A stretch of 61,751 nt of DNA from Candidatus Bathyarchaeota archaeon (lineage in GTDB: Archaea; Thermoproteota; Bathyarchaeia; Bathyarchaeales; Bathycorpusculaceae): positions 1 to 61,751 of the forward strand of contig PLNS01000026.1 in assembly GCA_003141855.1 (NCBI GenBank), read 5' to 3'. Positions 46,491-48,175 of this stretch are shown here, piece after piece; position 1 is the first letter of the stretch; each line of letters starts with the position of its first letter. The translations under genes and the position numbers were made by a program. The notes under the pieces are model-generated. The model had not been told where the DNA came from and ran no database searches. It worked only from the letters and a program-made list of their open reading frames with translations.

Positions 46491-46798
46491 TTTTCATCGG
46501 GCTAACTTTTCCTTCAAACCTAATAAGCGTTGTCGGTAAATGTGCCAATTAGCTCAAAATGGCTGGCTATCCGTTGATTTCTTTGGCAAGTGCGTACAGC
46601 TTTTTAACATGTTAATTGGTGCAAAAATGTCAATAGCGACCTACCCCCTATAGGTTTCAGCATGCTATTTCTATTAGGCTCCAAATATGCTCTAAAACTA
46701 CCACAAATTGAGAGGCAAGCCAAATGGACTAGTACAGTCGTTTACAAATACAGTTAAAAACAACAAACACAGAAACCTGTAAGCAAGGACTGGTACCT
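46491..46798. other. Divergent intergenic region with repeat
   Basis: 308 bp between the aldolase operon (minus) and the split regulator (plus). No gene. It carries the 53-bp dispersed repeat on the minus strand (46625-46677) about 135-187 nt before the aldolase operon, and an AT-rich stretch before 46799. Confidence 0.5.
46625..46677 (-). repeat. 53-bp dispersed repeat with G-rich core (copy 6)
   Basis: The minus strand reads AATAGAAATAGCATGCTGAA, then ACCTATAGGGGGTAGGTC. It is the partner of 33903-33955. The CCTATAG part could serve as a weak TATA box for the minus-strand operon. Confidence 0.6.
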
Positions 46799-47236
46799 TT
46801 GAGTTTGAAGCGTGTCGCCATCGCGTTGGCTTTAATACTAATCGTTGTAGGTGGTTTTGCAGCGCAAATATACCAGCAGAAAAACTTCAAGTACACCTAC
46901 ACCGAACAGCCCGTTCGGCACATTGAAGTTTACTCGGGCTTGGCTAGCTTGAAGACAATAACCATAAACGAGTACCTTATGGTCGCGTTTCCCCCATCCA
47001 TAACCGTTCAAGCGCCCGACGTTAACCAATCAGTCTTGACCAATGCAACGCGAAGCCAAATCTACGATTATATCAACCAGAACCCCGGCATGCAGTTCAG
47101 GGCAATATGTTCAGCGCTTTTCCTTCCAGTCGGGTTGGCAGAGTACCATTTAGGCGTTCTCGTCAGGGCTGGGTTGGTTTCGTTTGTTCGCGACGGCCGC
47201 TATAAACGGTTCTTTGTTGCTAAACGGTTTTCCTAG
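46799..47236 (+). CDS. Membrane-anchored winged-helix regulator, N-terminal part
   Basis: 145 residues from TTG: a signal anchor (VAIALALILIVVGGFAAQIY), a beta-rich segment to about residue 75, and a winged helix (RSQIYDYINQNPGMQFRAIC, then LAEYHLGVLVRAGLVSFVRD). The frame ends at TAG 47234-47236, but the same frame continues for another winged helix. Related archaeal proteins carry two winged helices in tandem, so this is probably the first part of one protein. Confidence 0.75.
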   Translation: MSLKRVAIALALILIVVGGFAAQIYQQKNFKYTYTEQPVRHIEVYSGLASLKTITINEYLMVAFPPSITVQAPDVNQSVLTNATRSQIYDYINQNPGMQFRAICSALFLPVGLAEYHLGVLVRAGLVSFVRDGRYKRFFVAKRFS

Positions 47237-47242
47237 CGTGAG

Positions 47243-47494
47243 ATGGCAACGATTTGTCTGCTGCGGCATAAGACGGCGAAAAGAATCATTGAAACACTCC
47301 TGTGCAAGAGGCAATTGTCGCATGGAAAGTTAGCTGATGAAGTTTCGATTACTTCGCAAGCGTTAACGTGGCAAATGAAAACTCTGAAGAACACAGAGTT
47401 CGTGTTGCAAGTGAATGAGGGATTAAAGACCATTTACATGTTAGATGAATCTTCAAAGCCATCGCTGAGAACCTATTTGGCTATCGTTAATTGA
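47243..47494 (+). CDS. Winged-helix regulator, C-terminal part
   Basis: 83 residues. The winged helix RHKTAKRIIETLLCKRQLSH, then SITSQALTWQMKTLKNTEFV, fits as the second domain of the protein beginning at 46799. It is in the same frame and separated only by TAG-Arg-Glu. ATG 47243 could allow independent start, but no ribosome site is visible apart from GCGTGAG. Confidence 0.65.
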   Translation: MATICLLRHKTAKRIIETLLCKRQLSHGKLADEVSITSQALTWQMKTLKNTEFVLQVNEGLKTIYMLDESSKPSLRTYLAIVN

Positions 47495-47542: not shown

Positions 47543-48175
47543 ATGCCCAAGTACTATCTTTTAGGCGGAGAAAACACCCACAAAAGGGATGCACAAGAAG
47601 TAAATCAAAGAGCCTTCCACGATGCGGGTAAGGCACCGAGAGTTCTTGTGTTTTCTTGGGCTAGAGCATCCTTCGATAAAACCTACCCTAAAAGTAAACT
47701 CCTGTTCGATTACTTCAGAAGCTTGGGCGCCAGCACAGTAAACACTGCTGATTTCTCTAGCTCGTCTGCGGAAATTAAGGAAAAAATCTCTGAATCAGAC
47801 CTTGTTTATTTAACGGGTGGTGTGCCCAGCGTTTTGGTGGAGCGCCTAAAAAAATCAGGCATCCGCAGTTTACTCAAGGATTTTGAGGTGGTTATTGTTG
47901 GCAGGAGCGCAGGTGCATTGGCGCTTTGCCGAAAATGCGTGATAACTTACAGGAGCAATTCAGCCGTCAAAGTCATCGACGGCTTGGGGCTGGTGGATAT
48001 AACGCTTAAGGCTCATTACAAGTTAGGCATGGATGAAGAATTAAAAGAGTTATCGAAAACGCAGGATATTTTTGCTGCGCCAAAGGGTTCAGCGCTTGTT
48101 TACGATAATGGAAATCTGTCTTTCATCAACAACGTTTACTTGTTCCATAAGGGTGAGAGGCAGCTTTTGAGCTAA
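47543..48175 (+). CDS. Peptidase S51-family protein
   Basis: 210 residues. SDLVYLTGGVPSVLVERLKK and VVIVGRSAGALALCRKCVIT, with the nucleophile Ser in GRSAGA, match the S51 (dipeptidase E/cyanophycinase) fold. It probably splits aspartyl or related dipeptides. Leaderless: ATG about 30 nt after an AT-rich box. Confidence 0.88.
   Translation: MPKYYLLGGENTHKRDAQEVNQRAFHDAGKAPRVLVFSWARASFDKTYPKSKLLFDYFRSLGASTVNTADFSSSSAEIKEKISESDLVYLTGGVPSVLVERLKKSGIRSLLKDFEVVIVGRSAGALALCRKCVITYRSNSAVKVIDGLGLVDITLKAHYKLGMDEELKELSKTQDIFAAPKGSALVYDNGNLSFINNVYLFHKGERQLLS

Follow-up and report, generated by a model that had tools for sequence, protein, structure and literature searches.

How should a single in-frame TAG be understood when it falls between two domains of what looks like one archaeal regulator? 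The question is raised by a locus in the window, that is, the whole stretch of 61,751 nucleotides from a Candidatus Bathyarchaeota archaeon (genome G000) that was analysed here, and all features described below lie on its forward (+) strand. The first open reading frame (46799-47236) starts with TTG and encodes 145 amino acids with a predicted N-terminal membrane helix, a disordered loop and a first winged helix, and it ends with the TAG (47234-47236), which occupies codon 146, the first residue of the helix leading into the second winged helix. Beyond the TAG a further 85 residues follow in the same frame and hold the second winged helix (47243-47494, an 83-residue ORF if the ATG at 47243, in frame and six bases past the TAG, serves as start; Pfam HTH_24, E 3.6e-5), and reading through the TAG yields a protein of 231 residues ending at the TGA 47492-47494. 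In the frame from 46799 to 47494 we found no shift, no second internal stop and no other lesion. The initial annotation had read the frame as running unshifted across the TAG from one winged helix into the next, and in this the ORF reading, the Pfam HTH_24 matches and the structural model all agree.

By sequence comparison the read-through frame is not a matter of chance, since the homologs of the 231-residue protein (54-67% identity) align over nearly its full length as single open frames, and the predicted fold argues for the same. Pfam HTH_24 lies above cut-off in two stretches of the read-through protein, and each half was matched alone as well. The AlphaFold2 model of this protein, built with alignment A1 of 20 family sequences, has a mean pLDDT of 81 and gives a fold in which one N-terminal helix is followed by two winged helices. 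A membrane helix is predicted for residues 3-28 (46805-46882), its membrane nature being suggested by hydrophobicity; the full-length rows of alignment A1 share this helix, and residues 1-20 of the protein have block pLDDT values of 85 and 92. Residues 33-74 form the disordered loop, and the first winged helix covers residues 77-140 (47027-47218) by Pfam and by the model, where the domain upstream of the TAG is complete as a winged helix. The second winged helix opens with a helix starting at residue 146, the very position of the TAG, which in the model sits in the short linker between the two domains.

As for known families, the first half reaches 35.8 bits with HTH_HVO_0163_N (PF24266) against a cut-off of 31 bits, and 20/20 aligned family rows match the same domain with E up to 0.001. 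The likeness to the HVO_0163-type archaeal tandem winged-helix regulators concerns the N-terminal winged helix; compared by domain match alone, the regulator here has in addition, before the PF24266 domain, the predicted membrane helix and some 40 disordered residues, and the window copy differs further in being interrupted by the TAG. The second winged helix is similar in sequence and fold to ArsR/SmtB-like winged helices (NF033788; SmtB, HlyU and CzrA in the PDB), with an NF033788 score of 52.2 bits that is under the cut-off of 55, whereas the predicted membrane anchor and the tandem arrangement set the regulator apart from those proteins. A Foldseek search with the predicted fold returned best matches that are poor across both domains (TMq at most 0.33).

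To see the interruption among relatives, we refer to an order-wide census by profile search, which over 162 genomes gave 43 close family loci with E no higher than 4e-59. Of these loci 41 are uninterrupted, and internal stops occur only in the window copy and in a second genome, G024. Since so many close loci are single open frames, the single chain is, on this sequence comparison, the ancestral state; the single-chain archaeal relatives invoked by the initial annotation are thus real, and the possibility that homologs are always two separate genes does not hold. Several weaker matches of the census also carry stops (G086:C27, G157, G104 and G029:C68), their open frames being shorter (181-184 aa). 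Within the genus, an ortholog with at least 54% identity is found in 14 of the 32 genomes, some of which are incomplete, and 12 of these 14 orthologs are uninterrupted; such counts leave out L001-L004, the counterparts of G029:C32, G012:C78, G024:C72 and G023:C17. From this patchy presence the regulator gene is judged dispensable, many related species being without it and its loss being frequent. No relatives of the regulator were found among viral contigs. In a paralog, G029:C179 (L032:1501-1749 and L036), a frameshift inside the second winged helix splits the gene.

The codon alignment comprises 14 intact orthologs, among them the more distant but likewise intact ones of G032 and G003. Codon 146 is sense in 14/14, and a stop is found there in none of them nor in G024; a sense codon such as AAG, which had been suggested for homologs at this position, is indeed present in four. 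The residue is variable, with lysine in 5/14 (AAG in four, AAA in one) and T, N, R, I, L or Q in the rest, and AAG is one substitution away from TAG.

G024, the nearest relative, shares 78% identity over residues 69-231 and carries TAA at codon 145 together with a sense AAA at codon 146. Its DNA similarity with the window begins abruptly at 47006, around codon 69, the sequences being unrelated leftward. A rearrangement in G024 has removed promoter, start and membrane helix of the regulator; neither the upstream element nor the N-terminal 80 residues were found elsewhere in that genome, and its first winged helix is opened by no ATG, GTG or TTG. The junction itself, inside the orthologous gene at G024:C72 (L003:3001-3004), is abrupt and may come from rearrangement or from assembly. 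A stop inherited jointly by both genomes was considered and rejected by parsimony, since the linker, of invariant length in relatives, would need a pair of 3-base indels compensating each other; by this argument the two stops are independent events. In a simple model that gives transitions double weight, two independent stops fall at adjacent codons with a chance of about 0.018, a post hoc figure with n = 2 that carries little weight.

The selection acting on the gene was then considered. Between the window genome and G024, pairwise dN/dS is 0.19 for the first winged helix, 0.095 for the second and 0.10 for the neighbouring peptidase gene. Branch omegas were obtained with a custom codon model (F3x4) on a tree with weakly supported deep nodes. 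For the whole protein (228/231 columns used) omega is 0.18 on the G000 branch, 0.19 in the background and 0.20 on the G024 branch, and the closeness of the first two values argues for little time since the stop. For the second domain the G000 branch gives 0.11-0.13, where the data reject omega = 1 (2dlnL 7.4) and disfavour anything above about 0.4; by our reading, at most about a quarter of this branch may have been unconstrained. For the first domain of G000 alone the estimate of 0.49-0.70 is ill-determined, as about 0.1 to 1 all fit. On the G000 and G024 branches together, the core of the first winged helix gives 0.20 against 0.063 (2dlnL 6.8), in a noisy test where, out of five control pairs, one shows a departure nearly as large but the other way (2dlnL 5.3); the second winged helix, taken jointly in the same way, is not raised (0.16 against 0.18). 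Downstream of the TAG, dN/dS matches the low level of intact relatives, and with full neutrality rejected this means either a young stop or a second domain whose synthesis continues; it is no proof of the latter, since the stop is confined to a single branch and may have arisen very recently. The usual signs of an established pseudogene, namely relaxed dN/dS and multiple lesions, are absent in the window copy, which fits a recent event only.

Taken together, the TAG is probably an ordinary nonsense substitution of recent date, sitting where the two domains meet in a dispensable single-chain regulator; of the three options offered by the initial annotation, this one fits best. The ancestor was one chain with a predicted N-terminal membrane helix and two winged helices, and both halves were conserved until recently; in the G000 lineage a linker sense codon would then have turned into TAG by a recent point substitution. 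The ribosome would terminate at the TAG and give a 145-residue protein that keeps the membrane helix and a complete first winged helix but lacks the second; the operator binding of this product is probably lost or altered, and the locus would therefore be in the first phase of being lost, or else a tolerated truncation. Several points go against such a nonsense substitution. The second domain is wholly unrelaxed, as a domain still made would also show; stops arising independently at adjacent codons are unlikely by chance, at the post hoc value of about 0.018; and the window copy has no other lesion, with an intact promoter element. If the stop is an ordinary one, it shows that recoding need not be assumed whenever a draft archaeal genome has TAG within a frame, and that the membrane regulator is an often lost, dispensable gene.

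A comparison with bacteria is instructive here. According to the available passages of a bacterial survey (PMC7918605), genes with an in-frame stop and low dN/dS are in many cases no pseudogenes, and many of these stops are short-lived; and as far as these passages describe it, the regulator TAG fits this short-lived class. The two cases are alike, by the same passages, in a single in-frame stop with low dN/dS on both sides; the stops treated there lie at the same positions of orthologs, whereas the stop here is unique to G000 and the one of its sister is at another codon.

The alternative that survives best, though an unlikely one, is a functional split, where termination at the TAG and reinitiation at ATG 47243 would leave the first winged helix bound to the membrane and the second as a free protein of 83 residues, the two acting as separate parts. 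The model places the TAG exactly at the domain boundary, the in-frame ATG follows within six bases, the second domain is under purifying selection on the G000 branch, and the sister lineage G024 likewise has a boundary stop. However, the methionine of this ATG (Met 149) is present in 13/14 intact single-chain orthologs, with I in G029, so the ATG is older than the TAG and no adaptation to it. Moreover no Shine-Dalgarno 4-mer lies upstream of ATG 47243, such a 4-mer being found for 85/182 long ATG ORFs against 171/1390 internal ATGs. A ribosome that restarts close to a stop may do so without a Shine-Dalgarno site, and the missing 4-mer therefore only lowers the likelihood of a split. G024 has T in place of this methionine, and its first winged helix lacks a start codon; no further close family locus is split by a stop. 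Thus of the separate synthesis proposed by the initial annotation, the in-frame ATG is there as described, while nothing positive was found for its use, and both the age of the methionine and the missing 4-mer speak against it. Were the split functional, the passage from a one-component membrane regulator to a two-part one could be studied as a natural experiment in the two sister lineages.

A broader form of this idea, which we hold to be doubtful and somewhat less likely again, is that the winged helices are functionally separating or separated in the G000/G024 lineage, a gene fission in progress in which the neighbouring stops arose independently since the parts work apart. The raised dN/dS of the first core on both branches, together with the second domain not being raised, would suit a second domain with its own role.

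It is improbable that low-level near-cognate readthrough of the TAG keeps a little full-length regulator, the stop then acting as down-regulation, a role proposed for many bacterial in-frame stops in the available part of PMC7918605. The lack of any other lesion and the low dN/dS past the TAG would be expected of it. On the other hand, the RNA 3' of the TAG is no more structured than shuffles (z = +1.09), the genome shows no clear suppressor tRNA in its 43 tRNA matches, and the sister has TAA; the stop is not common to both by descent. The passages of PMC8211752 on demonstrated stop readthrough in archaea name only selenocysteine and pyrrolysine. The same evidence, along with the pyrrolysine searches given below, leaves the programmed readthrough of the initial annotation without support. 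General readthrough of TAG was also examined: extensions of at least 60 codons follow 9/70 TAG stops against 14/227 of TAA plus TGA, a mild excess for TAG, and among the eight TAG-ended frames with an extension of at least 70, the seven besides the regulator are by eye separate downstream genes or unrelated sequence, and the idea was rejected.

Still more improbable is an artefact, namely that the draft assembly has a consensus error at 47234 or mixes strains there. The TAG is one substitution from the codons of relatives and is known from one genome of the species, as assembly only; but neither a frameshift nor other damage is seen nearby, and the same gene being broken in a related lineage makes the breakage plausible.

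Insertion of an amino acid at the TAG, by way of pyrrolysine or some other suppressor tRNA, can practically be dismissed, since lysine as the commonest residue at codon 146 (5/14 intact orthologs) is met by a position that is variable, by PylS and PylD matches under cut-off, by 43 tRNA matches none of which clearly reads CUA, and by a TAG that is an ordinary stop. In the genome, estimated at 96% completeness, the best match is 31 bits for PylS (cut-off 178) and 21.8 bits for PylD (cut-off 150), each search having one control genome over its cut-off, and the pyl genes looked for on the proposal of the initial annotation are in this sense absent. Two of the 43 tRNA anticodons were read by eye and one is ambiguous; ARAGORN called no Tyr or Trp tRNA, and by eye L068 has CAT and L086 TTT. 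The tRNA L098 (G000:C27:218450-218950) apparently has long or multiple introns poorly resolved by ARAGORN, and by eye is perhaps a tRNA-Tyr. In 381 kb sampled from the 2.39-Mb genome, TAG ends 71/299 of the ORFs that reach 120 aa, and within the window it ends 16/43, counts of mechanical ORFs rather than curated genes with the 145-residue ORF itself among them, and in agreement with the earlier view that TAG is a normal stop here, no genome-wide recoding is indicated. In the available portions of PMC8211752 and PMC7886697 we found no report of pyrrolysine in Bathyarchaeia, the lone mentions of 'Bathyarchae' and 'pyrrolysine' being in reference lists. With no PylS or PylD over cut-off, no clear CUA tRNA and TAG as an ordinary stop, pyrrolysine was rejected, and recoding at 47234-47236 is very unlikely.

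Besides the coding region, the surroundings of the gene are also worth attention. Directly downstream lies a gene (47543-48175) that we take from sequence resemblance to be peptidase E-like, and this neighbour directly follows the regulator in 13/14 genus orthologs and in 0/12 other family loci tested. Upstream of the regulator, a conserved 31-bp element, AGTACANTYGYTTACRAATANNGTTAAAAAC, is matched exactly at 46731-46761 with 0 matches expected in shuffles, and is its probable promoter or operator. The 29-base core of this element occurs with 0-2 mismatches upstream of 15/16 orthologs tested, the exception being G024. Ten paralogs have a related version at 4-6 mismatches, with AGTACA in nine and GGTACA in one; the pattern AGTACA...TTTAC... 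is a feature of this tandem winged-helix regulator family and is present in the window copy. In the G000 genome the long form has one site at up to 3 mismatches and no further regulon sites. Judged from sequence conservation, the element is likely a family promoter or operator, and since it is conserved upstream of orthologs and paralogs yet has one long-form site in the genome, it looks like an autoregulatory operator-promoter. With the peptidase gene directly downstream, its retention in G000 is explicable by either gene, and under the recent nonsense substitution the promoter would perhaps be kept since it is also usable by the peptidase gene. The short form of the element has 9 matches against 2 for a reversed control, and a one-mismatch short-form match elsewhere in the genome (L099, G000:C26:10603-10623) is possibly due to chance.
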